Source of the DNA: Pseudodesulfovibrio tunisiensis
GTDB taxonomy: Bacteria > Desulfobacterota > Desulfovibrionia > Desulfovibrionales > Desulfovibrionaceae
Length of the DNA: 64,000 bases
Assembly: GCF_022809775.1 (NCBI RefSeq)
Contig: NZ_CP094380.1
Span: forward strand, 2,517,501 to 2,581,500
Reading direction: 5' to 3'
In this document: positions 8,314 through 25,053 of the stretch, one piece after another
How positions within the stretch are numbered: the stretch's first letter is position 1
Layout of the letters: every line of letters starts with the position of its first letter
Translations under genes and position numbers: made by a program
Notes under the pieces: model-generated
Told to the model about the DNA's origin: nothing
Database searches by the model: none
Seen by the model: only the letters and a program-made list of their open reading frames with translations

Positions 8314-9021
8314 CTAGCTCCAGCGTTCCATGACCCGTTCCAGCTCCCTGTCATGGCCGGGCAGCATGTAGCAGCCCAGAAGCTGGAAATAGTACTTCAT
8401 GGTCAGACTGACAGCGGTTTCCCTGTCCAGTTCGCCGCTGCGCACGTCCTGCAGAATGGATTTGAAGACCCGGAGGCTCACGTCGAGAAAATCCACGGTG
8501 CCTTCGGTGGTGAAGAACCCTTCTTCCACGCAATAGTCCATCATGACCCGGTTGCGCGCATACATGTTGTTGATGTTGAAGAACTGGTTGAACGGCCTGG
8601 GCCAATCCTGCACCACCTTTTCCGGAAAAAGATCATAGTACTGGTGCGTGTATTCCTCAAGTTTTTCATCGCTGTGCGTAAAAAAGATCAGTTCGTACAC
8701 TTCGGGATCGGCAAACGCGAACTCGGAAAAACATTTGCAGATGGCCATGTACCATTCGATGGAGTTCTCGCATTTGGCCAGATACGCGGGCAATGCCGCA
8801 TGATACTCGTCCAGATAACTCATGGTGGCCAGGAAGACCAGATGCGGCAGATTGTCGAAATAATTGTAGAGGGTCGCGCTGGAATATCCTGCAATATCCG
8901 ACGCCTTGCGGATCGTTACCGCATCGATGCCCTCTTTCTCGATGATCTCCCTGGCCGCTTCGATAAAGAACTTTATGGTGCGCTGCTGCTTGAGCTTCAG
9001 TCTGTCCTGAGATGTCTGCAT
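8314..9021 (-). CDS. TetR/AcrR family transcriptional regulator
   Basis: A 235-residue repressor-type regulator. The N-terminal helix-turn-helix is clear (IEKEGIDAVTIRKASDIAGYSSATLYNYF, shown here as AVTIRKASDIAG plus TLYNYFDN), and the long all-helical C-terminal ligand domain has no diagnostic motif. I chose ATG 9021; a TTG four codons upstream is also possible. It is the nearest DNA-binding protein to panF and the carnitine locus, and is read in the same direction 460 bp below panF. Regulation of either is only a guess. Confidence 0.85.
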   Translation of the reverse strand: MQTSQDRLKLKQQRTIKFFIEAAREIIEKEGIDAVTIRKASDIAGYSSATLYNYFDNLPHLVFLATMSYLDEYHAALPAYLAKCENSIEWYMAICKCFSEFAFADPEVYELIFFTHSDEKLEEYTHQYYDLFPEKVVQDWPRPFNQFFNINNMYARNRVMMDYCVEEGFFTTEGTVDFLDVSLRVFKSILQDVRSGELDRETAVSLTMKYYFQLLGCYMLPGHDRELERVMERWS

Positions 9022-9480
9022 GGCTTTCTTCAATACCTTTTATACTCTTCTCTCACATTCACAACAAACACTAGCCTGATAACATCTACTCGATTTCTTT
9101 TCCACGAAATCCCGGTCAAGGACCGAAATCAGAGCTTCCATCAGCACTCCGGAGGCTAATACTGCGCAAGTTGAGACTTCCCTGAAAGGGAGTGGTTTCG
9201 CCATGCGCGAGCATGGCAGATTTGCGGGATTTGGTTTTGCGTGCAACCATCTTCACGCCCTGCGCCTGACGAACGTACGGCACAACACGATCCAGCACAC
9301 AGGGAACCCCTTCTCCCCGAAACATTGCGACCGCCATGGAAAAACCGACGTTGTCGATTCGGCTCCGCGGCCGCCCGCACATGCCGCTGCAATGCTGCTC
9401 CGGCCCCCCGACCGGATTGACGCGCGTCTTGCCCGTCCTGCCGGGCAAGACACACGATATTTTATATGTTATTCTTTTTT
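9022..9480. other. Intergenic gap below panF
   Basis: About 460 bases lie between the panF stop and the TetR start. A 10-bp perfect hairpin stands at 9426-9451 (GTCTTGCCCG/CGGGCAAGAC, six-base loop), 30 bases past panF on the minus strand. It may end the panF transcript although no T-tract follows. The short open frames have no family resemblance. The TetR promoter must lie in the AT-richer stretch next to 9030-9100. Confidence 0.45.
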
Positions 9481-10950
9481 CTATCTTTTGTCAAAGTCGG
9501 CCAAGACCGGCTTTCCCAAATACGTTCCGACAGTGAACGCGATCAGCGCGGCCAATGTGGTGGGCACGATGGCGTGCCGCACCCCCATGGCCGGTTTCAG
9601 GATGCTGAGGGCAAAGAAGGTGCCGCAGCCGACCACGATGGAGGCCACGGCCCCGGTCGCATTGGCGCGCTTCCAGTACAATCCCAGCACGATGGGCCAC
9701 AGGAACACGGCTTCCAGCCCGCCGAACGCGAACAGGTTGATCCAGACCAGCAGGTCCGGCGGCTCGATGGCCGCGAAAAAGACCATCAGCCCGATGACCG
9801 CCGTGGAAATCAGGCTCATGCGGCGCAGGCTGACCGGGGTCATGCGCGAGGCATCGCCCTTGAGCCTGTAGTGCACGTACAGATCCTTGATGATCGCGGC
9901 CGAGGCCAGCAGCAGCATGGAGTCCACCGTGGACATGATGGCCGCAAGCGGCCCGGCAATGAACACGCCCGCCCATGTCGGTGACAGCAGCTCCACGATC
10001 AGGGTGGGCATGGCCAGATCGCCCGCAGGCAGATTCGGAAACACCGCCCTGCCCAGCGTTCCGGCCAGATGCGCGCACAGGATCATGAACCCGATGATCA
10101 GGGTGCCGATGATCATGGCGTCGTGCATGGCGCGGGAGTCCCGATAGGCCATGCATCGCTGCGTGGTCTGGGGCAGGCCCAGCACGCCAAGGCCCACCAG
10201 CACCCAGAACGAGAGAATGAATGGCTGGGGCACGGCATTGTCCGGCCCGGTCGGCGTGATCAGTCCGGGATCGATGCTCTTGAGCGTGGCAACGCACTGC
10301 TCCATGCCGCCGCCAGCCTCGATCACGGCCATGAGCACGACCACCACGGCCACGACCATGACCATGCCCTGAATCGCATCGGTCAGGACAACGGCCCGAA
10401 ATCCGCCGATCGCCGTGTACACGACCACGGTAATGCCGAACAGGACCAGTCCCACGATGTACGGATATCCGGTCACGGACTGGAACAGACGCGCGCCGCC
10501 GATGAACTGGGCGAGCATGGCGGCCATGAAGAACACGAGCAGGGCCACGGAACAGAGCACCACCACGGTGTCGCTTTTGAACCGGGCGCGCAGAAAATCC
10601 GTGAGGGTCACGGAATTGGTGCGCCGGGCCTCCATGGCGAACCGCTTGCCCAGCACGCCCAGCGTCAGAAAGGTGGTAGGCACCTGAATCATGGCCAGCA
10701 GAACCCAGCTCAGGCCGAGACGATAGGCCACGCCCGGGCCGCCCACGAAGCTGCTCGCGCTGGTGTAGCTGGCGATGATGGTCATGGCGAGCACGAACCC
10801 GCCCATGGACCTGCCGCCGATGAAGTAGTCCTCGAGAAATCCCTGCGAGGAACTGCTTGCTGCTGCCTTTTTTCTGGCCCACAGGGCCACGGCAAAGGAA
10901 AGGACCAGATACAGTGCCACCGGAATCATGATTTCCGAATTCGCGGTCAT
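9481..10950 (-). CDS. panF: Sodium/pantothenate symporter PanF
   Basis: A 489-residue, ~13-TM member of the sodium:solute symporter family that imports pantothenate with Na+. It is strongly PanF-like along its whole length as I recall the E. coli protein: EDYFIGGRSMGGFVLAMT, ASSFVGGPGVAY, FIGGARL, YTAIGGFRAVVL, SFWVLVGLGVLGLPQT and WINLFAFGGLEAVFLWP. It overlaps the upstream YhdT-like gene by ATGA, the same partner as in E. coli, which supports the assignment. The type III pantothenate kinase gene at 60465-61238 would use its product. Confidence 0.92.
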   Translation of the reverse strand: MTANSEIMIPVALYLVLSFAVALWARKKAAASSSSQGFLEDYFIGGRSMGGFVLAMTIIASYTSASSFVGGPGVAYRLGLSWVLLAMIQVPTTFLTLGVLGKRFAMEARRTNSVTLTDFLRARFKSDTVVVLCSVALLVFFMAAMLAQFIGGARLFQSVTGYPYIVGLVLFGITVVVYTAIGGFRAVVLTDAIQGMVMVVAVVVVLMAVIEAGGGMEQCVATLKSIDPGLITPTGPDNAVPQPFILSFWVLVGLGVLGLPQTTQRCMAYRDSRAMHDAMIIGTLIIGFMILCAHLAGTLGRAVFPNLPAGDLAMPTLIVELLSPTWAGVFIAGPLAAIMSTVDSMLLLASAAIIKDLYVHYRLKGDASRMTPVSLRRMSLISTAVIGLMVFFAAIEPPDLLVWINLFAFGGLEAVFLWPIVLGLYWKRANATGAVASIVVGCGTFFALSILKPAMGVRHAIVPTTLAALIAFTVGTYLGKPVLADFDKR

Positions 10951-11270
10951 ATGGCGTCCCTCCCGCGCCCGGTCTCCTCGGGCGGCACGCTCCCGTCGGG
11001 ATCGCCGGACTCGCCGTCAAGCGGCATGTCCCTGTAGAAAAGGCGTACCATGGCCCAGAGCAGCAGCGTGATGAGCGGATAGCCCACGATGCAACTGTAG
11101 AAGAACCATTCGGGCAGTCCCAGAACATAGGCATACTGTTCCGGGTCGCTGTCGCCGAGTCCATAGGCGAACGCGTACCACCAGATGAAGTACAGACCGT
11201 ACGCGCCAAGGGCGAGCAGGGCCTCCTTGTTGGCCTGGGCGTAACGCCAGTCCTGCTTTTTCTCTCTCAT
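10947..11270 (-). CDS. yhdT: YhdT family (DUF997) small membrane protein
   Basis: A 107-residue protein with two predicted TM helices (LGAYGLYFIWWYAFAYGLG; WFFYSCIVGYPLITLLLW) and the FIWWYAFAYG signature of DUF997. It sits immediately upstream of panF with a four-base overlap, the conserved yhdT-panF pairing. It is presumably a small accessory of the symporter; the function is not established. The start at 11270 (MREKKQDW) was preferred to an upstream in-frame codon because GAGGA precedes it. Confidence 0.88.
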   Translation of the reverse strand: MREKKQDWRYAQANKEALLALGAYGLYFIWWYAFAYGLGDSDPEQYAYVLGLPEWFFYSCIVGYPLITLLLWAMVRLFYRDMPLDGESGDPDGSVPPEETGRGRDAI

Positions 11271-11317
11271 AACGCAATTCCTCACGGGGTGCGGGCAAGG
11301 TTGTTCCCGGCTCCGGA

Positions 11318-11531: not shown

Positions 11532-11819
11532 CTAGCCGTAACGGTATTCAACGCCGAACGTGCCGTTCGGGTATTCCCATTTGCGGAGGATGGTATTTCC
11601 GCACAGGATGCGGCAGGTGCCGCATTCCAGACAGCCTGCGTAGTCGAAGTGGATGTTGCCGCTCTCGTCCTTCTTGTACAGACCGGCGGGACATGCGGCT
11701 TCGAGCTTGGCGAACTCCTTGGGATCGGGATTCTCCACGAGTTCGATATGCGGATTGCCTTCGTCGACAAAGAACTTGTTGACGCCCAGTTTCACATCGA
11801 CATTCACTGCGTCGCTCAT
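11532..11819 (-). CDS. fixX: FixX ferredoxin-like protein
   Basis: A 95-residue ferredoxin-like protein with the cysteine pattern CLECGTCRILC plus an upstream CPAG cysteine, as in FixX/EtfX proteins. It is the iron-sulfur partner of FixC and passes electrons between ETF (FixAB) and FixC/quinone. The start overlaps the fixC stop by ATGA. In enterobacteria fixABCX is needed for anaerobic carnitine reduction, which matches the position here at the end of the cai locus. Confidence 0.93.
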   Translation of the reverse strand: MSDAVNVDVKLGVNKFFVDEGNPHIELVENPDPKEFAKLEAACPAGLYKKDESGNIHFDYAGCLECGTCRILCGNTILRKWEYPNGTFGVEYRYG

Positions 11820-13102
11820 ATGGATTTCACTCCTTTGAAACCGTCTTTGATCAGGTTCATGAAACCGACTTTCTTCAGATGGGGCATGACCTTCTTGCGC
11901 AGGGGCGCGGAGGCGCCGTTGATGGTGAAGAGGTCGTTCATGATGCCGGTCACCATCTCCGGGTACTCGTTGTACATGCGGGTGTTGTCCAGAAAACCCG
12001 GCAGGTTCCTGTACAGTTCCATGTCCTTCATCACGAAGCTGTTTTCCAGCGCGCTCTTGTAGGAGGACAGGGAGCCCTCGGAAAAGTCGCCCTTTTCCTT
12101 GGCCGCGATCACGGCATTGGCAGCGGCTTCGCCGGAAGCGATGGCCAGATCCATGCCGCGCACGGTGTAGCCCACGTTCAGGCACAGACCGGCTGCGTCG
12201 CCCGCGATGAGCACGCCGTCGGCCACCATCTTCGGCAGCATGGCGAGTCCGCCCTCGGGCACCACGTGGCCGGAGTATTCAACCGAGGAACCGCCCTCGA
12301 TCAACGGCTTGACCGTGGGATGGTTCTTGAAGTCCTCCAGCATCTGGGGAACGCTCTTGCGCACTTCGGCCACGTTGTGCAGGCCGAAGACCAGCCCCAG
12401 AGACACGGATTCCTTGTTGGTGTACAGGAAGCCGCCGCCCATGTAGCCGGCGGAGGGCATGCCCGCGAACAGCCAGGCAGCGCCGCCATTGCCGGAACAG
12501 CCGAAGCGGTCGTTGATCTGCTGTTCGCTGAGCTGGATGATTTCCTTCACGCCCACGGCGCAGTGGTGCGGGCTGACCTTGGGAACCAGACCGAGCTTTT
12601 CGCCGAGGATGGAGTTCACGCCATCGGCCAGAATGACCACATCGGCCTCCATTTCCTCGCCAGCCGCGATCACGCCGCAGACCTTGCCGTCGCGCACGAT
12701 CAGGTCGTCCACGCGGATGCCGGGCACGATGCTGGCTCCGGCGTCCTCGGCCTTTTCGGCCAGCCACTGGTCGAAGCTGGAACGCATGACCGAGTAGGAG
12801 CGGTTCGCGGGATCACCGGCCTCGGGAGAGGCGTAGTCCAGCGTGGTGCTGCGGGTCTCGTCGATGAAGGAAATCTTCTCGTGGACAATGCAGCGCTCCA
12901 CCGGAGCCTCTTCCGCGAAGTTCGGGAAGATCTTTTCCAGACTGTGGGCATACAGCCGACCGCCGGTCATGTTCTTGGCACCCGGGAAGTTGCCGCGCTC
13001 GATCACGAGCGTTTCCAACCCGGCCTGGGCCAGCAGATAGGCGGCGGTGCATCCGGCCAGACCGGCACCCACCACAATTGCATCAAATTTGTCTTCAGAC
13101 AT
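11816..13102 (-). CDS. fixC: FixC flavoprotein, ETF:quinone oxidoreductase-like
   Basis: A 428-residue FAD-dependent oxidoreductase of the geranylgeranyl-reductase/ETF-QO superfamily. The N-terminal dinucleotide fold reads VVGAGLAGCTAAYLLAQAG, the second FAD motif is VILADGVNS, and the C-terminal motif is LIAGDAAG. With FixX it links FixAB to the quinone pool or a bifurcating flavin. It is separated from fixAB by a symporter gene and its micro-protein, an unusual split of fixAB from fixCX. Confidence 0.93.
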   Translation of the reverse strand: MSEDKFDAIVVGAGLAGCTAAYLLAQAGLETLVIERGNFPGAKNMTGGRLYAHSLEKIFPNFAEEAPVERCIVHEKISFIDETRSTTLDYASPEAGDPANRSYSVMRSSFDQWLAEKAEDAGASIVPGIRVDDLIVRDGKVCGVIAAGEEMEADVVILADGVNSILGEKLGLVPKVSPHHCAVGVKEIIQLSEQQINDRFGCSGNGGAAWLFAGMPSAGYMGGGFLYTNKESVSLGLVFGLHNVAEVRKSVPQMLEDFKNHPTVKPLIEGGSSVEYSGHVVPEGGLAMLPKMVADGVLIAGDAAGLCLNVGYTVRGMDLAIASGEAAANAVIAAKEKGDFSEGSLSSYKSALENSFVMKDMELYRNLPGFLDNTRMYNEYPEMVTGIMNDLFTINGASAPLRKKVMPHLKKVGFMNLIKDGFKGVKSI

Positions 13103-13243: not shown

Positions 13244-14857
13244 TCAGAACGGCAGGACCTCCCTGCCGAGAATGGCATTGTAGGGCAACGCCCAGTTAAT
13301 GATGAGAAACGTGGAAAGCGCCACGCCCGCGAAAACCAGAAGCCAGCCGTAAATCCTGTCCCGGCGATAGTCGGCCACAAGGGTTTCCCCTCGGGGAATG
13401 ACATGCAGACCGGCCTGAAATTCGGTTTCCTCACGGGAACGGGTCTGGCCTCTGGATCCCAGAATGCCGAGCACCACGCTCACGACCACGCCGATGAAGA
13501 ACGGATCGAAAATGTTGTTGAACGGCACACCCGCCAGTTCCTTGAGCAGCTTGCAGACGAAGTAGCCCGCAAACCCGCCGACCATGGCGTAGTATGCACC
13601 GCGCTCGGTGAGCTTTCTGCTCCAGATGCTGGCAAAGGCCACGTATCCCCACGAAGCGGCCAGAATGGTGCTGGCGAACCACGTGATGATCCGGATCGTG
13701 GACAGGTTCAGGCAGGCCAGAACAAGGGCGACAACGCCCACCACCAGCACCATGATGCGGGTGAAGTTCAGATGGCTGGCCTCGCTCTTGAAATCGAGAT
13801 CAAGGACATCGCTGGAAAGACTGAAGCTGATCACGGACAGGAACGTGGAGGCCGAGGAAAGTCCGGCGGTCATGATGCCGGTGAGCAGCAGCACGCCGAT
13901 GAACTTGGGCATGACCTCGGTCGCGGCCCAGATGATGACCTGTTCCGGCTGCGCCATGCCCGGATTGATCTGGATCATGGAGATGGCCATCACATACAGA
14001 TAGAAGAGAAAGAAGATGGTCAGCAGGCAGGACACGGCTCCGGAACGGAACGTGACGTGCTCGTTTCTGGCCATGAGGTTGCGGCCCGCCTGCCACGGGC
14101 TGACGCTCACCGCAATGAGCCAGATGATGCCCATGGTCACCGCGTACCACACGATGTCGAACACCGAACCGCCGCCAGTGTTGCCGTGGTAGTCGAGCAG
14201 ACCTTCCGGGGTGTTGGGATTGGCCGCGAGATTGGCCACCAGATCGCCCAGACCACCGGCCGCGCTGAACACGTACGGCCCGGCAACCATGGTGGCGATG
14301 AGGAAGAAGATGCACATCAGGGTGTCGGTCAGGATGACGCCCTTGGACCCGGAATACATGGTGAAGCAGGTGATGCAGAACCAGGCGATGACCAGACAGG
14401 TGATGCGGTCGTATCCGAGCAGGGTCTGCATGAGGATGCCCGTGCCCTGAATCACGCTGAGCAGATACGCGGCAAGAGACACGATGGTGGTCAGCCCGGC
14501 GAACCGGCGGATGCGTCGGCTGTTGAAGCGCTGGCCGAAATAGGACGGCATGGTGTTGACCTTGGCGCGACGAATGTATCGTCCGAAAAACAGGGGGCCG
14601 AGAATGTAGCCGCAGGCGCACAAGGTGTTGAGCAGGATCATGGTGGTGATGTTGCCGCCGTAGCAGTAGGCGGTGTCACCCATGAAGCCGTTGGTGCTCA
14701 GCATGGAAGCGAACAGGGTTCCGGTAATCAGGATGGTCGGGGCATTGCGGCCACTCACGTAGTAGTCCTCGACCCCCTTGACCTTTCGTCCGGCATAGGA
14801 GCCGATCAGAATGTAAATTAAAACACTGACCATGACTCCAATTGTATATATACTCAC
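13244..14857 (-). CDS. Sodium:solute symporter family transporter within the fix/cai locus
   Basis: A 537-residue SSS-family transporter with ~13-14 TM helices. Characteristic segments are VEDYYVSGRNA near the N-terminus, LSVIQGTG, and MTAGLSSASTFLSVIS in the sodium-site helix. The start is GTG (14857) with GGGAG eight bases upstream. A 39-codon membrane micro-protein gene ends 13 bases before it. The position between fixB and fixC suggests uptake of a trimethylammonium compound or a co-substrate such as a carboxylate; this is inferred from context only. It is clearly distinct from PanF in sequence. Confidence 0.88.
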   Translation of the reverse strand: MSIYTIGVMVSVLIYILIGSYAGRKVKGVEDYYVSGRNAPTILITGTLFASMLSTNGFMGDTAYCYGGNITTMILLNTLCACGYILGPLFFGRYIRRAKVNTMPSYFGQRFNSRRIRRFAGLTTIVSLAAYLLSVIQGTGILMQTLLGYDRITCLVIAWFCITCFTMYSGSKGVILTDTLMCIFFLIATMVAGPYVFSAAGGLGDLVANLAANPNTPEGLLDYHGNTGGGSVFDIVWYAVTMGIIWLIAVSVSPWQAGRNLMARNEHVTFRSGAVSCLLTIFFLFYLYVMAISMIQINPGMAQPEQVIIWAATEVMPKFIGVLLLTGIMTAGLSSASTFLSVISFSLSSDVLDLDFKSEASHLNFTRIMVLVVGVVALVLACLNLSTIRIITWFASTILAASWGYVAFASIWSRKLTERGAYYAMVGGFAGYFVCKLLKELAGVPFNNIFDPFFIGVVVSVVLGILGSRGQTRSREETEFQAGLHVIPRGETLVADYRRDRIYGWLLVFAGVALSTFLIINWALPYNAILGREVLPF

Positions 14858-15646: not shown

Positions 15647-16588
15647 CTAGGCCTTGAAGGCTTCGATCAGTGCGGGAACCACAGTGTAGAGATCTCCCAC
15701 GATGCCGTAGTCGGCGAACTGGAAGATCGGAGCATTCTTGTCCTTGTTCACGGCAACGATGGTCTGGGCGCCGTTGGCACCGACCATGTGCTGAATCTGA
15801 CCGGAGATGCCCAGGGCCAGGTAGACTTCGGGCTTGGGCATGACGCCGGAAATGCCGACGTAACGCTCCTGCTCCATCCACTTCTCGCCTTCGGCGATGG
15901 GACGGGAGCAGCCCAGCTCGGCACCCAGCACGGAGCACAGCTCTTCGGCGAGCTTGAGGTCTTCCTGCCTGGCAATGCCGCGGCCCACGGAAACAACGCG
16001 CTTGGCCTTGTTCAGGTCCACGCTGCTGCCTTCCTTGGCGCGACGCTCGATGCACTTCACGGAAGCCTTGGGCTCCACGAAATCCACGGCAACGGTCTCG
16101 CCGGAGCGGGAGGCGTCAGCCTCGGCAGCGGCAAAGGTACCGGCGGCAGCCACGAGAATGGCGACCTCGGAGGTGATCTTCTCGGCACCCAGAGCCAGAC
16201 CGCCGTAGACCATGTGCTTGGCCTGCACGGAACCCTCGGCAGCCTCGATCTCGGCAGCCTCGGTGATGACACCGGCATTCAGGCGCACACCCAGCAGGGA
16301 AGCCAGAGCCTTGGAACGGCGGGTGGAGGGCAGCAGCACCAGGGAAGAACCGCCTTCGGCGATGACCTTGGCCATGGTGTCGGCGTAATTCTCGACAATG
16401 CGGGCGGAGTCGGCCTCGCCAAGATGGTAGACCTTGGCGGCGCCGTAAGAGAAGGCAGCGGCCACGTCATCCTGGGAACCGATCACGAAAGCGGAAACCT
16501 GCTCGCCGAGCTCGAGGCCACCGGCCACGACTTCGGCAAGGCGGGAGGCCGCGTCACTGAACACCCATACGTTGGAAAACTTGCTCAT
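15647..16588 (-). CDS. fixB: FixB, electron transfer flavoprotein alpha subunit
   Basis: A 313-residue ETF alpha-subunit-like protein. The C-terminal FAD domain shows SVGRGI, the ISGQIQHMVG motif and VAVNKDKNAPIFQFADYGIVGD, all classic for FixB/EtfA. The N-terminal domain pairs with FixA. It begins 10 bases after the fixA stop. As part of FixABCX it passes electrons to the crotonobetainyl-CoA reductase CaiA. Confidence 0.95.
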   Translation of the reverse strand: MSKFSNVWVFSDAASRLAEVVAGGLELGEQVSAFVIGSQDDVAAAFSYGAAKVYHLGEADSARIVENYADTMAKVIAEGGSSLVLLPSTRRSKALASLLGVRLNAGVITEAAEIEAAEGSVQAKHMVYGGLALGAEKITSEVAILVAAAGTFAAAEADASRSGETVAVDFVEPKASVKCIERRAKEGSSVDLNKAKRVVSVGRGIARQEDLKLAEELCSVLGAELGCSRPIAEGEKWMEQERYVGISGVMPKPEVYLALGISGQIQHMVGANGAQTIVAVNKDKNAPIFQFADYGIVGDLYTVVPALIEAFKA

Positions 16589-16598
16589 TTCATTCCCC

Positions 16599-17372
16599 CT
16601 AGTTCAACACTTTGCGCAAGTTGCTCACGAATTCGGCGATCTTGTCCTCGGCGTCGCCTTCAACGATGATGTTCTTGCGGTCCTTCTGTTTCGGGGCCTT
16701 GACCTCGACCAGCTCCACCAGGGCGGAATCGGCTTCCAGACCCAGATCCGCAGCGGACATGGCATTCACGGGCTTCTTGGAAGCGGCGAGAATGGCCTTC
16801 ATGCCGGGAATGGTGGGCTCGTTGATGTCGGCGGACACGGACACGACAGCGGGAAGGGCGATTTCCAGCACTTCCACTTCGTCTTCCAGAGCGCGCTCCA
16901 CCACGAGCTTGCCGGCCTCGGCGGACACGATCCTGCTCACGCCGGAAACAGTGGCCACTTCCAGCTCCGCGCCCAGACGCAGGCCAACCTGCTGGGCATA
17001 GAGGTCGCCGGAACCGTCGCCGCACAGGATCAGGTCGAAACCGATCTTTTCGGCAGCGGCAGCCAGCACCCTGGCGGTCTGGTGAGGCAGAGCATTCTTG
17101 AAGCCTTCGTCGATGACGGCGGCCAGCTCATCGTTTCCGCGGGACAGAATGTCCTTGCGGGCCTTGGTGTTTTCCAGCTCCTTGCCACCCATGCTCAGGG
17201 CGGTGATGGTGCCTTCGCCGACCATGCCCTTGATATCAACGGCAGCCTGGACAGCGTTGAGGTCGAACTGGCTGATCTTGGGAGCGGCCTTGCTCAGGTC
17301 GAGCGCGCCGTCCTTCTGAACAGCGATGTCCTGCTCTTCAGGGACGAGTTTACAACCAACAATGATTTTCAT
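16599..17372 (-). CDS. fixA: FixA, electron transfer flavoprotein beta subunit
   Basis: A 257-residue ETF beta-like protein beginning [15 protein letters not shown]. The segments [29 protein letters not shown] and [21 protein letters not shown] match the beta-subunit fold that binds AMP or, in the bifurcating FixA type, a second FAD. The start at 17372 replaces a longer frame that would add 26 non-conserved residues. It lies 115 bp below the hydratase gene and directly upstream of fixB. Confidence 0.95.
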
Positions 17373-17487
17373 ACTTCTCCATCCTGTCTTATCTAGTGCT
17401 TTAGAGCCGCATCCCGAAGGGTGCGACTCTTCCCGCAATCGGCTCCGCACCCGGAAGATCCGGATGCGGAGGCCGTTAACAGTTCAG

Positions 17488-18339
17488 TTACTTCCACTCC
17501 GCCAGAGCGTAGTTGAGGTAAGCGATCTCGGGGTTCTCCGCATCGATGACACGGAAGTGAACGGAATTGTCGTCCCACTTCCAGATCTGGGTCTTGGCGG
17601 TGCATCCCGGGTACAGGGACTTGGTGATACGGGTCTTGAAACGGGTCAGACGCTCGGGCTCGCCCGGAATCATGGTCGAGATGATGTGGCGGCAGGCCTG
17701 ACCAGCGGTGCTCACCGCATGCAGGTTCGGCTTGGGATGGCCGAATTCCTGGGCGTAGGCCCAGTCGATGTGCTGCGGATGATAGTCGCCGTTCAGGCGG
17801 TAGATCAGGGCGCGGTTCAGGGCCACGGTCTCGACAACCTCGAAGTCGGGCTCGCGATCGGGAATCTCGACGATGTCCTTGGGAGCCTTGGGGCCACCCC
17901 AGCCGCCGTCGTACAGGGCGCAGTCCCAGCTCTCGTTGGTGAACAGCTTGGTGCCGTTCTCGTCGTAGGTGTCGCCGATGTGCTGAGCCAGCAGGCCACG
18001 GCCTTCGCCACGGTCGTACAGGCCCTTGAGCAGCACTTCGGTGCGCAGGGTGCCGGACAGTGCGGTCATGGGCTGGTGGAACTGGAGGTCGAAGCCCCAG
18101 TGCAGGGAACCGCCCCAGTTGAAGCCGTAGTCGATGGTCTTGGTGACTTCGCTGTCAACGATGGGCATGGCAGCGAACATCGGCAGGATCTTCATGTCCT
18201 TTTCGTACACGTACTCGAGGTCGGTCTTGCCGTCGAAACCGGCGCCGCAGCTGATGGCGAACAGGCTCAGTTCACGGAAATCGTAATCCCGCATGAACGG
18301 ACCGTAGGTCTTGCCTTGCATGTCCAATTTCAGTGCCAT
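17488..18339 (-). CDS. MaoC/hydratase-2 family enoyl-CoA hydratase in the caiD position
   Basis: A 283-residue double hot-dog protein. The N-terminal half shows LEYVYEKDMKILPMFA and ALSGTLRTEVLLKG, as in the non-catalytic half of hydratase-2 enzymes. The C-terminal half has YRLNGDYHPQHID, the hydratase-2 motif with the catalytic Asp/His pair kept and the usual Asn replaced by His. MALKLD at 18339 has AAGGAG upstream. It stands between caiC and fixA where enterobacteria have the crotonase-type CaiD, so hydration/dehydration of crotonobetainyl-CoA/carnitinyl-CoA is the likely reaction (inference). No other hydratase is in the locus. Confidence 0.82.
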   Translation of the reverse strand: MALKLDMQGKTYGPFMRDYDFRELSLFAISCGAGFDGKTDLEYVYEKDMKILPMFAAMPIVDSEVTKTIDYGFNWGGSLHWGFDLQFHQPMTALSGTLRTEVLLKGLYDRGEGRGLLAQHIGDTYDENGTKLFTNESWDCALYDGGWGGPKAPKDIVEIPDREPDFEVVETVALNRALIYRLNGDYHPQHIDWAYAQEFGHPKPNLHAVSTAGQACRHIISTMIPGEPERLTRFKTRITKSLYPGCTAKTQIWKWDDNSVHFRVIDAENPEIAYLNYALAEWK

Positions 18340-18458: not shown

Positions 18459-20075
18459 CTAGTTCACCAGCACATTGCCCTGCGCATCGCGAGAAGCGGC
18501 ACAGGCTGCAACGGCTTCGTCCCTGAGGACGTTCTTCCGCACCTTTCCGGTGCAGGTTCTGGGAAAGTCTGTACGAATTTCAATGGAAGAAGGCACCTTG
18601 AACTTGGCGATGTGTTCGGTGCAATAATCGAAGACATCCTCCACAGTGAGGGTCTCCCCTTCCTTGACGACGATAAAGGCCTTCACAGCCTCGTCACAGA
18701 TATCGTCCGGAATACCGACAACCGCAGCGTCGACGATCTTCGGATGCGTCACGAGGAAATTCTCGATCTCCGTGCTGGAGATGTTCTCGCCGGACCGCTT
18801 GATCAGATTCTGCTTGCGATCCACGAAATAGAAATATCCGTCCTCGTCCATGTACCCCTTGTCTCCGGTGTGGAGCCAGCCGCCGCTGGTCAGGGTCCGG
18901 GCCGTTGCCTCGGGCTCCTCGTAGTACTCCCGGAAAATGGTCCGCCCGGGCTCGCCCTTGATCAGGATTTCACCCAATACCCCGGGTGCGGCCTCGTTGC
19001 CGGCCTCGTCCGCGATCCTGGCCTCGTAGCACAGGCCGGTCTGGCCGATGGAGGGCCAGCGACGTTCCGCGCCCGGACAGTCGCCCAGAATGCCCACGAT
19101 GGTCTCGGTCATGCCGTAGGAGGTGAACAGGCGGACATTGAACCGCTCGATGAATGCGTCCTTTTCCGCCTCGGAAATGTTGAGAAAGAACATGACCTCG
19201 CGCAGACAGTGGTCCTTTTCCCAGACCTGCTGCGGCTGAAGCATCAGGGTGCGGATCATGAGGGGGATGCATTCCGTGACCGTGGCGCGATGCAGGCAGA
19301 CCTGCCTCCAGAATCTGCGGGCGCTGTACTTTTCCAGAAGGATGAAGGTCGCGCCGATGGTGAAGGTGGGCATGGCTGCGGTGCACTGGAAATCGATGTG
19401 GCACGAGGGCATCATGGTCATGAAGCGGTCATCCTCGCGCAGATTGCACTGCCACGCGGTGTAATGACCGGCAAAGACCTGATTGTAGTGGGTGATGACC
19501 ACGCCCTTGGGATTGGAGGTGGTGCCCGAGGTGAACAGGATTTCCGCAGTGTCGCTGCTGCTCAGGGGCACGACCCGTTCCAGTTCCGCGGACTGCTCGC
19601 GCAGCAGCCTGCTGAAATTTTCCGCACCGGGGAATTCCCGGCCAACAGGCTCCCGGGCGATCAGAATGCCTTCCAGGGCAACGGTCTTTTCCTCCATCAT
19701 CTTTTCGTACTGATGGGCGAACCGCTCTTCCGCGACGATGAACCGAGGGGCGCACTTCTGCAGGATGTACAGGGATTCCCCGTGCAGATAGTGCACGTTG
19801 ATGGGGACCATGATCGCACCGATCTTGGCAAGGCCGAACCAGACGGCCAGAAATTCGGGGCTGTTGTGCAGCTGGACGGCGACGCGGTCGCCCTTTTCCA
19901 CGCCGAGACCGAGAAACAGGTTCGCGGCCCGGTTTATTTCGCCGTTCAGTTCGGCGTAGGTGTATTCGCTCGTCTCGCCCGAGGTGGACTCGAAAACGAG
20001 CGCGGTCTTTGCGCCATGGCGTTGGGCCAGCCCGTCCCAAACCTGGCGTAATGTCCTGTCGCCTATGATATCCAT
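18459..20075 (-). CDS. caiC: Crotonobetaine/carnitine--CoA ligase
   Basis: A 538-residue AMP-forming acyl-CoA synthetase. The P-loop-like motif is [20 protein letters not shown], with adenylate motifs [23 protein letters not shown] and the C-terminal catalytic Lys region TCTGKVRKN. It resembles E. coli CaiC end to end as I recall it (MDIIG start, [30 protein letters not shown]). It activates carnitine, crotonobetaine or gamma-butyrobetaine with ATP and CoA. A 266-bp spacer with a large hairpin separates it from caiB. Confidence 0.95.
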
Positions 20076-20341: not shown

Positions 20342-21574
20342 TTAGTTCTTCTTGGGGGCTTCGCCTATTTTCACGAGTTTCTTCTCGGCGAGTTCGTTGA
20401 TCTGCTCCTCGGAGTAGCCGATCTCGCTGAGAATGTCGGTGGTGTCCATGCCCTGATTCGGCATGGGACGCCACACCTTGCAGGGGTTGTTCTTGAACTT
20501 GGGCATCACGTTGGGGCCCTTGAACTTGCGTCCGGACAGGGTCTCCCATTCGGTGAAGGACTCGCGGGCGATGTACTGGGGATTGTCCTCCAGTTCGGTG
20601 AACTCCAGCACCTTGGCGCCGGCGATCTTCATTTCGCCCAGAGCCGCGAGAGCTTCCTCGACGTTGCGTTCGGCAAAGAACTTCTCCAGTCCGCCCTCGA
20701 ACTCCTCGGCGTAGCGATTCTCGCGAGCGATGAGCTGAGTGCCTTCCGGAATTTCCTCGGTGCCGAGCAGATGCTCGATGCCCAGCGTCTTGAACATCTC
20801 GATCATCTGGTTCACGCCCACGACTTCGGTGACGACGTAGCCGTCCTTGCAGTTGAAGAGACCGCAGCCAGCCCAGATGGGATCGCGGCCCTTGACCTGA
20901 CGGGGGCAGATTTCGCCACCGTTGAAGTAGTCGATCATGTAGTACTGGCCCACGCGAAGCATGGCCTCGTACATGGCGATGTCGATGCTTTCGCCCTTGC
21001 CGGTCTTCTGCACATTGTAGATGGCAGCCAGAACCGAGCTGGTCACGGTGAAGCCGCAGATGTAGTCGGCAGTGTACGGGAACGCCGCCATGGGCTGATC
21101 CTTGTCGCCGTTCTGAATCAGGTAGCCGCTGAAGGCCTGGGCGATGGTGTTGTAGGCAGCGCGATTGGTGTACTCGTCGTCACCGTACTGGCCGAAGCCG
21201 GACAGGTGGGCGATGACGAGCTTGGGATTGCGCTCCCACATCACTTCGTCAGTGATGCCGCGGCGGGCAAAGGCGGGGCCCTTGCTGGATTCGATGAACA
21301 CGTCCGCAGTCTCGATCAGCTTGAGGAAAGCCTCCCTGCCCTCGTCCTTGAAGATGTTCATGGACAGAGCGTACAGGTTGCGGCGAGACAGTTCGGGGTA
21401 GTTCTTCTGCACACGGATGGTGTCGGCGTAGGCCGTATTCTCGATCCAGATGACTTCCGCGCCCCATTCCGCGAACATCTGTGCGGAGAAGGGACCGGCG
21501 ATCTCGATGGCGGAAAACACGACGCGCATGCCGGACAGCGGTCCGAACTTGGGGGTCTGCAACTTCTTGGTCAT
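20342..21574 (-). CDS. caiB: Crotonobetainyl-CoA:carnitine CoA-transferase
   Basis: A 410-residue family III CoA-transferase that exchanges CoA between gamma-butyrobetainyl-CoA and incoming carnitine or crotonobetaine. The catalytic-Asp segment [12 protein letters not shown] aligns with E. coli CaiB Asp169, and [23 protein letters not shown] near the N-terminus and [15 protein letters not shown] are CaiB-like. Length is close to the E. coli enzyme (405). The stop is 45 bp from caiA on its upstream side, so it is co-transcribed with caiTA. Confidence 0.95.
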
Positions 21575-21619: not shown

Positions 21620-22756
21620 TTAACGGTACTGCTTCAGGACGGCGCGGCCCAGGGTCAGGATCTGCATTTCGTCGGAACCGCCGGAGAGACGGTCGATGCG
21701 CAGATCGCGCCAGAAGCGGCCCACGCGGTGACCGGTCACGCCGATGCCGCCGAGCACCTGCATGGCAGTGTCCACGACGTAGAAGGCGGAGTTGGCGCAG
21801 TAGTACTTGCACATGGCGGAGTCGCCGGAGGTCATGGTGCCGTTGTCGCACTTCCAGGCGGTCTCAAAGAGCATGTTCTTCATGCTGTTGATCTTGATGG
21901 CCATGTGGGCGAACTTTTCCTGAATGAGCTGGGTGCGGCCGATGGCTTCGCCGAACTGCACGCGCTGGTTGGCGTACTTGGCGGCGTCCTCGTAGGCGCA
22001 CAGGGCAATGCCGTAGTTGGTGCAGGCAACCAGGAAACGCTCGGCGTCGAACTCTTCCTTCACGCGGTTGAAGCCGTTGCCGTCCTCACCGAACAGGTCC
22101 TTTTCCTCGAGCTCGACATTGTCGAAGACGAGTTCGCAGCAGCTGTCCATGCGCAGGCCGAGCTTGTCGAGCTGGTTGCGCTTGATGCCGGGCTTGCTCA
22201 TGTCCACGAACCACTCGGAGAAGACCGGCTTGTCCGGGGAATCCGCGTCGCGAGCCATGACCACGATATACGGGCAATGGGCGCTGGAGGTGATGAAGCA
22301 CTTCTGGCCGTTCAGGTACACCTTGCCGTTCTTGCGGGTGTAGGTGGTCTTCAGGCTGCCCACGTCGGAACCGGCGCTGGGCTCGGTGATGGCGGAGTTC
22401 CACATCTGCTCGCCAGTGCCGCGGTAGGCGAAGATCTTGTCGATCTGCTCCTGGGTGCCCCAGCGCAGGATGGTGCTGAAGCCGGGCAGCTGGTACAGGA
22501 CGTAGGTCGGAGCGCCGTGGCGGCCGAGTTCGGCCCAGATCGCGGTCAGGGTCACCATGCTGGCGTCCATTCCACCGTGCTCCTCGGGGAGCAGCATGGT
22601 GTCGATGCCGAGTTCGGCGAGTTCCTTGACCCAGCGGATGGGATATTCGTGCTTTTCGTCGCACTCCACGAAGTAGGGTTCCCAGTTCTCACGAGTCATG
22701 AGCTCGCGGACAGCGGCGACAAACAGTTCCTGTTCTTCGGAAAGATTGAAATCCAT
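21620..22756 (-). CDS. caiA: Crotonobetainyl-CoA reductase
   Basis: A 378-residue acyl-CoA dehydrogenase-fold flavoprotein that runs as a reductase, forming gamma-butyrobetainyl-CoA with electrons from FixAB. It begins [20 protein letters not shown] and shows [55 protein letters not shown] and the C-terminal [21 protein letters not shown], nearly all as in E. coli CaiA. It lies 54 bp below caiT. Confidence 0.96.
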
Positions 22757-22810: not shown

Positions 22811-24325
22811 TTACCAGTTGTTCTTCTTGGCGTCCTTGAGGAAGGACCAGATGATCATCAGGTTGACGAAGAAGAGCGGGCAACCGCCAGCGATGATCGC
22901 GGTCTGGAGGGGCTTGAGGCCGCCCAGAGCCAGCAGGGTCACGCCGATCACGCCGACCAGCACGGACCAACCCACGCGGACCCAGACAGGGGGCTCGGAG
23001 TAGCCGTCAGCCTCGGTGCAGGTGGACATGGCCAGGGTGTAGGAGCAGGCGTTCACCAGAGTCAGGGTGGCGATGAAGCACAGCACGAAGAAGATCACGA
23101 TGGTGAAGGTCGGCATGGGCAGAGCGGCCCAGGTCTCGATGACCGCACGAGGTGCGCCGTATTCGCCCACCAGATGGGTCAGGTCGATGGCGCCGCGACG
23201 GATCAGATCCATGGTGTTGCCGCTCAGCACGGTCCACATGAACCAGGTGGTGGCGGTCAGGCCGGCAACCATGCCCACGCACACTTCGCGGACGGTACGG
23301 CCCTTGGAGATGCGGGCGAGGAACAGGCAGGTCTGGATGCCGTAGATGACCCACCAGGCCCAGTAGAACACGGTCCAACCCTGCGGGAATCCGCCGCCGC
23401 CGATGGTGTCGGTGTACAGCAGCATGCGGCCGAAGCGGTCGAGCAGCACGCCCATGGAGTCGGTGAAGTAGTTGGCGATGAAGGTGGTGCCGCCGAGGCA
23501 CAGGACCCACAGCAGAACACCGATGGACAGGTAGCTGCGGAAGTCGGAGGCAAGGCGCATGCCCTTGTTCAGACCGAAGGCCACGCAAATGGCGTTGAGC
23601 ACGATCCAGCAGGAGATGATCGCGGCGTCGAGACCCAGGGTGTGGGGGATGCCGAACAGGTACTGCATGCACTCGGTGACCAGCGGAGTGGCCAGACCAA
23701 GGCTGGTGCCCATGGCGAGAATCAGGGCCACGATGTACAGGTTGTCGATGATCACGCCGACAAGGCCCTTGCAGTGCTTTTCACCAAGCAGCGGAACCAG
23801 GGTGCCGCTGGGGCGCATGACGTTGATCTTCTTCACGAACAGGAAGTAGCCGAAGGCAACGGTGAAGAAACCGAAACCGGCCCAGGGCAGCGGTCCCCAG
23901 TGGAACAGGCTGTAGGCCAGACCATATTCCTGCGCAGTGGCGGAAAAGGGTTCGAATCCGAAAGGCGGGGTGGCCACGTAGCAGTAGGCCTCGTAGGAGC
24001 CCCAGAAAAGGACTGCGGCGGACGTGGAAGACGCGAACAGCATGAAAATCCAGCTCGCGGTGCTGAATTCGGGCGCTTCGTCACCAAGCTTGTTGTTCTT
24101 CCAGGGGCCGAAAACCATCCAGCACCAACCGGCCAGCATGACGATCATGTACCACTCGAAGGCCCAACCCCAGGAGTAGGTCACGTAGTGGAACAGGGCG
24201 TTGATGGCGTTGTTCGCGGCATCCAGATCCCGCACGGTCAGATACGAGAGGAATCCCACGAAGATCAGCGAAGGGAAAAACACCTTCGGATCAATAGTCA
24301 CTTTCTTTGCTTTCTCGGGTTTCAT
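22811..24325 (-). CDS. caiT: Carnitine/gamma-butyrobetaine antiporter CaiT (BCCT family)
   Basis: A 504-residue, 12-TM BCCT transporter exchanging external carnitine or crotonobetaine for internal gamma-butyrobetaine. The tryptophan box is present ([13 protein letters not shown]), as is the ASDFRSYLS arginine matching Arg262 of E. coli CaiT. Counting from the WW pair, the position equivalent to E. coli Met331 is Thr (VIYGIQTC rather than VIYAIQMS). ATG 24325 (MKPEKAKK) has GGAG nine bases upstream and is preferred to a TTG five codons before it. It is the first gene of the locus. Confidence 0.95.
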
Positions 24326-25053
24326 CCGGAAATTCTCCAACTGATGGTTAAAATATCGTTCCTAACAGTTCCTCAGCTCGTGGCCCCAGCCTGGCTTCAG
24401 GCCCCCCATGGCCGCCGATCCGTCGGAACTCCGCATGCAATGCTGCCAGCGTCCTCGGCTGGCGAAATTTCTTTTCCCCAGCATGTCCTCCTGACTTGTC
24501 CGAATCTGTGTTTGTGATTTTTTGCATAATCGTGATCATTTTGCAATCGCATTTTTTAAAAAATCATGATCAGAGTCTGGAAAATAGAGAAAAAAACACT
24601 TATTTTGAAAAGTTATACTTGTTCCAAAATGCGGAATTCGGAGGCGGGATACTCGCGATTATAGACAAATATCGACATGAAAAAGATTGTTTCATATCGA
24701 AAGACAATTTAATCGCGTCAAAAAATGACCAGCGTTCACTTTGCACATGGACTTCCCCAGCTGTTCACCCTGCCCCGAACAACTTCCGCACCATTCAATG
24801 AAGCAACCTTGGCCTGCCGGAGTGAACCACACGCAACATCCTGAAAAAAATAGCATATCCAAATTCATGGATATGCCATTCCAGCAATGCCGGAACTCTT
24901 TCGGGCAGTCGCTGCTTGTGCCGCACAGCAACAAGGGGCCGGGCAATGTGAAAGCCTTCACAGCCCGGTCATCCGACTGAAGTCAAATGAAAATGTCGTT
25001 GTTTGAACCGTTGCCGAAAGCGATGCGGACAGGGTGTCCGCTGCATGAATCGC
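24326..25053. promoter_or_regulatory. AT-rich upstream region of the carnitine locus
   Basis: About 730 bases without a supportable gene, much more AT-rich than the surroundings between roughly 24500 and 24740. A 14-base palindrome ATTTTTTAAAAAAT (24551-24564) is flanked by two TGATCA sites (24533 and 24566 areas). The caiT promoter and any operator should lie here. I found no convincing CRP, FNR or sigma-54 site by eye. Confidence 0.55.
24844..24876 (-). terminator. Rho-independent terminator below the DUF362 gene
   Basis: On the minus strand the stem GCATATCC/GGATATGC (24853-24876) is followed by TATTTTTTT. It lies about 180 bases past the DUF362 stop and insulates the caiT promoter region from upstream minus-strand transcription. 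Confidence 0.8.

Follow-up and report, generated by a model that had tools for sequence, protein, structure and literature searches.

A Hydratase-2 Family Protein at the CaiD Position of Bacterial Carnitine Gene Clusters and Its Possible Role as a Carnitinyl-CoA Dehydratase

Results and Discussion

Organization of the cai-fix Locus

The window, by which we mean the whole 64,000-nucleotide stretch of DNA analyzed here, comes from the genome of Pseudodesulfovibrio tunisiensis (3.61 Mb, one contig with a listed completeness of 100%), and carries a carnitine gene cluster with the minus-strand order caiT-caiA-caiB-caiC-(MaoC)-fixA-fixB-(symporter)-fixC-fixX. Its genes, together with a nearby regulator, are as follows:

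22811..24340, minus strand: caiT, BCCT antiporter (NF002887, 834 bits, cut-off 541; 70% to E. coli K-12)
21620..22756, minus strand: caiA, crotonobetainyl-CoA reductase (NF002885, 720 bits, cut-off 540; 79% to E. coli K-12)
20342..21574, minus strand: caiB, CoA-transferase (NF002914, 674 bits, cut-off 413; 69% to E. coli K-12)
18459..20075, minus strand: caiC, carnitine/crotonobetaine-CoA ligase (NF005947, 866 bits, cut-off 651; 59% to E. coli K-12)
17488..18339, minus strand: MaoC/hydratase-2 protein P0002, ATG start, 283 aa, proposed carnitinyl-CoA dehydratase/crotonobetainyl-CoA hydratase
16599..17375, minus strand: fixA, ETF subunit (NF002888, 387 bits, passes the subfamily model; 61% to E. 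coli K-12)
15647..16588, minus strand: fixB, ETF subunit (NF002889, 397 bits, below the cut-off of 549; PF00766/PF01012; 54% to E. coli)
13244..14857, minus strand: sodium:solute symporter SSF1, between fixB and fixC (TIGR00813, 118 bits, below the cut-off of 184)
11816..13102, minus strand: fixC, flavoprotein oxidoreductase (NF007542, 629 bits, passes the subfamily model; 62% to E. coli)
11532..11819, minus strand: fixX, ferredoxin-like (63% to E. coli FixX)
8314..9033, minus strand: TetR-type regulator (PF00440; 45–52% to regulators in Campylobacterota cai loci)

CaiT, CaiA, CaiB and CaiC all pass their NCBIfam carnitine equivalog cut-offs, and the eight Cai and Fix proteins are 54–79% identical to those of E. 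coli; on this basis, caiTABC and fixABCX are recognizable, as an earlier, sequence-only reading of this DNA had it. That reading also placed a double hot-dog hydratase-2 protein between caiC and fixA, at the position of CaiD, which we find to be correct in its coordinates, with the gene on the minus strand. The P0002 gene is preceded by a sequence resembling a ribosome-binding site (AAAGGAG), and is separated from caiC, ahead of it, by 119 bases and from fixA, behind it, by 112 bases, with no terminator-like site detected on the minus strand in either flanking gap by a simple scan. By eye, the gap to fixA (17376-17487) contains two GC-rich inverted repeats, which are not T-tailed terminators. 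The SSF1 symporter is likewise found in the cai loci of Endozoicomonas and Campylobacterota. Downstream of fixX (window 9481-11297) are panF (641 bits) and a small gene that matches the PRK10633 model below its cut-off and that we take to be YhdT-like, a pair that points to uptake of pantothenate, a CoA precursor, next to a CoA-heavy pathway.

Neither caiD nor caiE is a member of this cluster, and searches of the window with E. coli CaiD, CaiE and CaiF gave no match at E 0.01, in agreement with the claimed absence of a crotonase-type CaiD. The whole genome encodes one crotonase, with 33% identity to CaiD. Among the best 25 of its 72 NCBIfam matches, the 25th of which scores 158 bits, no model is passed at its cut-off; the top ones are for generic enoyl-CoA hydratases, and the CaiD model (cut-off 500 bits) does not appear. 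We therefore reject the possibility that the genome encodes a CaiD ortholog at another site, the finding that was to have overturned the original proposal. The absence of CaiE holds for the locus but not for the genome, which has a 70% homolog at C1:1832709-1833290, away from the cai-fix locus and with no carnitine genes seen in the surrounding 19 kb (open reading frames inspected by eye).

The single crotonase is part of a second cluster in the same genome:

G000:C1 about 3271500-3285100 (L069:5548-19080): second cai-like cluster

This cluster comprises a caiA-like gene (53% to E. coli CaiA), a caiB-like gene (44%), a fixC-like gene (57%), the generic crotonase and fixA, as well as two BCCT transporters, a sigma-54 activator (PrdR as best match, below cut-off) and, by eye, an MBL-fold-like protein. 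Its substrate is likely another betaine or a sulfonium compound.

Active-Site Residues and Nearest Relatives

P0002 has the double hot-dog fold, the matches of the model being double hot-dog proteins, and it gave no crotonase family match at E 0.001 and no hit to the CaiD model NF002936. Alignment to human MFE-2 identifies the catalytic residues E46, D185 and H190, which we take to be the equivalents of human E366, D510 and H515; the catalytic Asp and His are thus retained, as originally noted. The DxNPLH signature with its Asn is not present, P0002 having GDYHPQH, with H187 in place of Asn. Across an alignment of 68 family sequences, E46 and H190 are found in 68/68, and D185 in 66/68, with both exceptions being second copies. 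Our alignments exclude three partial MaoC matches of 70 (L067, L068). The His at the Asn position is invariant (68/68), and we therefore reject the Asn-to-His change as an odd lesion of the window protein: the substitution that the sequence-only reading pointed out is real, but it is a family trait and not a peculiarity of P0002.

The family also has an aromatic residue at positions 71, 73, 75, 81 and 193 in all 68 sequences and at position 83 in 66 of them (Y71, F73, W75, W81, F83 and W193 in P0002), and none of these family aromatics is present in the 11 generic relatives fetched. From these sequence comparisons, the conserved aromatics plausibly form a cage for the trimethylammonium group.

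We note in addition a clade of MaoC proteins (SH-aLRT 100) in which the catalytic Asp is replaced by Ile, Cys or Asn (L003:9108-9959, L019:12198-13049, P0098, P0101 and P0112). The two such copies of known context lie in a cai locus near an intact copy, adjacent to it in L003 and beside a second CaiB in L019, and these proteins are possibly inactive partner subunits.

The closest relatives in the phylum sample are MFE-2-like hydratase domains of Desulfobacterota (L072-L082; 40–44% identity), which, unlike the cai proteins, are mostly found within longer open frames, carry an LHG(E/G/Q)Q motif, and have Phe at the Asn/His position in all 11 fetched, such that the Asn of the hydratase-2 motif is not strict. 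No cai or fix match lies beside these domains in the 3.8-kb stretches of the four annotated (L072-L075). Compared to the 2-enoyl-CoA hydratase 2 of human and Candida MFE-2 (1s9c, 1pn4), the cai MaoC proteins stand alone, with no SDR partner domain, and differ in the Asn-to-His change and in aromatic replacements in LHG(E)Q and in the 71–75 segment.

Distribution Across Carnitine Gene Clusters

One scan of genome contigs with P0002 as query recovered 67 loci with this family from several phyla, covering Shewanella, Ferrimonas, Endozoicomonas, Enterobacillus, Campylobacterota, Bacillota, many Actinomycetota and one Dormiibacterota MAG, a number that is a lower bound since the scan picks up close relatives only. 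We can thus reject a rare one-off swap, and the implication that the arrangement is particular to the window genome does not hold, with Shewanella and Ferrimonas having both enzymes. Other cai or fix genes are present in 66/67 loci, the exception being a short contig (L068). At 85% coverage or more, CaiA is found in 60/67 loci, CaiC in 60/67 and CaiB in 59/67, and every one of the 7 loci without CaiA reaches a contig end. CaiD is not seen in 54/67 loci within the stretch examined, some stretches being short. The 13 loci that do have it all belong to Shewanella or Ferrimonas, with the order caiTABCD-maoC-caiE (L005, a short contig, shows caiD-maoC-caiE only). A genome-wide search for CaiD, covering the genomes of 46 of the 67 loci, gave an 84–89% ortholog in 12/46 and a best match of at most 41% in 34/46. 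In 4/46, nothing in the genome matches CaiD at E ≤ 1e-3, some of these being draft or MAG assemblies. This scoring of the CaiD state leaves out Shewanella sp. WXL01 (P0054).

Among 395 Desulfobacterota genomes, the family was found in the window genome only, the matches at E ≤ 1e-40 in 30 others being relatives of 34–44% identity. The sample missed some members, however, since close proteins exist in Desulfobaculum senezii (91%), Desulfovibrio aminophilus (84%) and Desulfobotulus (82%).

Searches seeded with CaiA gave matches in 3/295 genomes (E ≤ 1e-150), 1/321, 1/299 and 5/296 (E ≤ 1e-120), the four centre genomes included, and thus added few loci, from six non-seed genomes. In three of the six (L096-L098), MaoC lies directly after caiC. 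An enterobacterium (L083) has CaiD and no MaoC, and a member of the Shewanella set (L084/L089) has CaiD-CaiE on a short contig, a CaiA match on another contig with no other cai genes in view, and no MaoC. The remaining locus, from an actinomycetote (L095), has caiABC with neither CaiD nor MaoC (no MaoC match at E ≤ 1e-10), and a crotonase about 4.4 kb from caiA that is 40% identical to CaiD. Such a crotonase, with EchA19 as best model below cut-off, occurs near 2/5 Actinomycetota CaiA loci (L095, and L097, which has MaoC as well). A few cai loci may therefore use another hydratase or none.

Some gene neighborhoods are worth recording in their own right. In Winkia (L036:10906-12225) and Schinkia (L018:10950-12290), MaoC is directly followed by an MFS transporter, sugar-porter-like and below cut-offs, which is a possible carnitine/gamma-butyrobetaine carrier; L018 also has a CaiT-type BCCT gene. 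On a Curtobacterium plasmid (L099:8986-9906), the MaoC gene adjoins genes for an AMP-binding protein and an MBL-fold protein, with an MFS gene upstream.

Coexistence of MaoC and CaiD in Shewanella

Within a set of 129 Shewanella genomes (E ≤ 1e-80), CaiD is present in 28 and MaoC in 18. All 18 MaoC-bearing genomes also have CaiD, 94–204 bases away, leaving 10 genomes with CaiD only and none with MaoC only. No MaoC is in view in any of the 10 CaiD-only loci, 9 of which have caiTABC in view (the tenth, L089, is a short contig). The median dN/dS of the Shewanella MaoC is 0.031, based on the 10 of 45 pairs among 10 genomes that fall within the dS filter of 0.05–1.0, alongside 0.014 for CaiD, 0.010 for CaiA, 0.022 for CaiB, 0.039 for CaiC, 0.054 for CaiE and 0.012 for CaiT. 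Judged by these substitution rates, the Shewanella MaoC is under purifying selection and not decaying, and the idea that it is a dying relic is not supported. As both enzymes are conserved in Shewanella, where redundancy would be odd, a second function is favored.

Phylogeny and Order of Events

Our trees were built on chosen subsets of 48, 54 and 26 rows, and the second-cluster paralog served to root the CaiB tree. In the 48-row CaiB tree, the 23 CaiD-bearing rows group as a single clade (SH-aLRT 100), which is recovered in a careful 26-row tree (12 rows, 100/100), and is nested among MaoC-only rows from Bacillota, Actinomycetota, Endozoicomonas, Enterobacillus, Campylobacterota and the window. 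An AU test rejects the MaoC-only rows as one clade (p-AU 0.0008), this group having been named after a first tree and the outgroup branch being long. In the 54-row MaoC tree, the six Shewanella/Ferrimonas proteins from CaiD loci likewise form one nested clade (98), which also takes in one Shewanella protein of unchecked context. The CaiA tree, unlike the CaiB tree, places Enterobacillus with E. coli (94), and genes of the cluster have therefore been reassorted, with separate histories for parts of it. Across loci, MaoC distances correlate with those of CaiB (r 0.875), CaiA (0.82), FixA (0.75), FixC (0.67) and CaiC (0.61). We read these values as shared history and not as a special link, because other pairs in the cluster correlate up to 0.92 (for instance, CaiA-FixA 0.91).

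Since the CaiD loci are one clade nested within MaoC-only lineages, MaoC looks older, and it is probably the older hydratase of the pathway, having preceded CaiD. From this phylogenetic pattern, CaiD would have entered the pathway a single time among the lineages sampled, in the line that includes Shewanella, Ferrimonas and E. coli, after which some descendants would have kept both enzymes and others lost MaoC; the root, and with it the order of events, depends on a long outgroup branch (1.63). The original wording, that the MaoC-type enzyme “replaces CaiD”, thus probably has the history backwards, because in the rooted CaiB tree the basal positions belong to MaoC-only loci, with those that carry CaiD making up one nested clade.

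Proposed Function and Choice of Enantiomer

P0002 resembles E. coli CaiD in following caiC within a cai cluster that is equivalent in other respects, and in the CoA-thioester pair that we propose for it, whereas CaiD has the crotonase fold, unrelated to MaoC in fold and catalytic residues, and would be expected to work on the opposite face. From gene context, we infer that P0002 would act as crotonobetainyl-CoA hydratase, interconverting carnitinyl-CoA and crotonobetainyl-CoA; CaiB and CaiC would load CoA, and CaiA with FixABCX would reduce crotonobetainyl-CoA to gamma-butyrobetainyl-CoA. By analogy with hydratase 2, Asp185 and His190 would act on the water and the alpha-proton, the reaction being syn, with the conserved aromatic residues holding the trimethylammonium group.

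The choice of enantiomer is less straightforward. L-Carnitine, the common natural enantiomer, is R, and by the priority rules it is spatially the same as an (S)-3-hydroxyacyl chain. It follows from this match that a crotonase-type CaiD fits L-carnitine, while a normal hydratase 2 predicts D-carnitine: the known hydratase-2/MaoC enzymes have R specificity, from which D-carnitinyl-CoA is expected. The stereochemical argument made from the sequence alone is therefore sound by established priority rules. Weighing this against the observations above, we consider L-carnitinyl-CoA the most likely substrate, in that most loci have MaoC only, that CaiT, CaiA, CaiB and CaiC are carnitine-type, that the L form is the natural one, and that a single function would then be changing hands; attack would therefore take place on the opposite face from the one that known hydratase-2 enzymes use. 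That P0002 is the cai-pathway hydratase of an unannotated hydratase-2 branch, with L-carnitine as its most likely substrate, is a proposal that we regard as evenly poised. The fuller scenario, in which this branch is the ancestral L-carnitinyl-CoA dehydratase with opposite facial selectivity, and the CaiD of E. coli a later, single take-over that is half-way in Shewanella and Ferrimonas, is a tentative one that falls short of an even chance.

If the normal hydratase-2 face were instead kept, these enzymes would handle D-carnitinyl-CoA, allowing D/L interconversion via crotonobetainyl-CoA together with CaiD, and reduction of D-carnitine where MaoC is alone. This main rival is rather unlikely on balance, but it would account for the retained fold and E/D/H residues, for the adjoining and joint presence with CaiD in all 18 MaoC-bearing Shewanella genomes and also in Ferrimonas, and for the purifying selection on the Shewanella MaoC, and an enterobacterial “carnitine racemase” activity is described in PMC2131755. 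The same paper presents D-carnitine as waste that arises from chemical synthesis, and the family is spread over several phyla, with the MaoC-only organisms (54/67 loci show no CaiD) being left without an evident route for abundant L-carnitine.

Hydration could also be provided in trans by a crotonase, here that of the second cai-like cluster, in which case the reaction of MaoC would be a side one, with a different intermediate or a related betaine as its substrate. The caiA-, caiB- and fixC-like neighbors of the genome's one crotonase would fit such a role, as would the 40% crotonases near two of the five Actinomycetota CaiA loci; we nevertheless judge it improbable, as this crotonase is only 33% identical to CaiD with the CaiD model outside its best 25 of 72 matches, a search for CaiD at E ≤ 1e-3 comes up empty in four of the 46 MaoC-bearing genomes (some being draft or MAG), and the gene placed with caiABC is the MaoC gene. 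Very improbable, in our view, is that the whole locus serves a different hydroxy-betaine or a sulfonium compound, with MaoC being specific for the enantiomer of that compound: the additional transporters do vary by lineage (SSF1 here, and MFS after MaoC in Winkia and Schinkia), but CaiT, CaiA, CaiB and CaiC pass carnitine equivalog cut-offs, and CaiA is 79% identical to the E. coli enzyme.

Conclusions

Neither the pathway nor the fold nor the reaction type is new. In a literature search at the level of titles and abstract openings, no paper linking MaoC with carnitine dehydration was found, and the match obtained for MaoC, carnitine and caiB concerns, by its opening text, mesaconyl-CoA in Haloarcula. 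As far as the literature searched goes, a dedicated hydratase-2 branch, its apparent priority over CaiD and its possible reversed face have not been described. Among the 120 of 246 database matches listed, many are unnamed, and the names given are “MaoC/PaaZ C-terminal domain”, “acyl dehydratase”, “hypothetical” or a bile-acid-type cholestenoyl-CoA hydratase, with carnitine in none of them.

Many bacteria with carnitine genes thus have MaoC in place of or beside CaiD, probably for the same step. Genomes and metagenomes have been surveyed for the conversion of carnitine to gamma-butyrobetaine with the rule that an intact cluster must have all six caiTABCDE genes, as stated in PMC11857547, a criterion that would miss MaoC-bearing, CaiD-less clusters such as those of an oral-taxon Actinobaculum and of a pus-sample Schaalia. 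Should L-carnitine be the substrate, these enzymes would offer a clean example of the hydratase-2 fold working with its facial selectivity reversed; should it be D-carnitine, they would provide a natural D-carnitine route and, together with CaiD, a two-enzyme epimerization.
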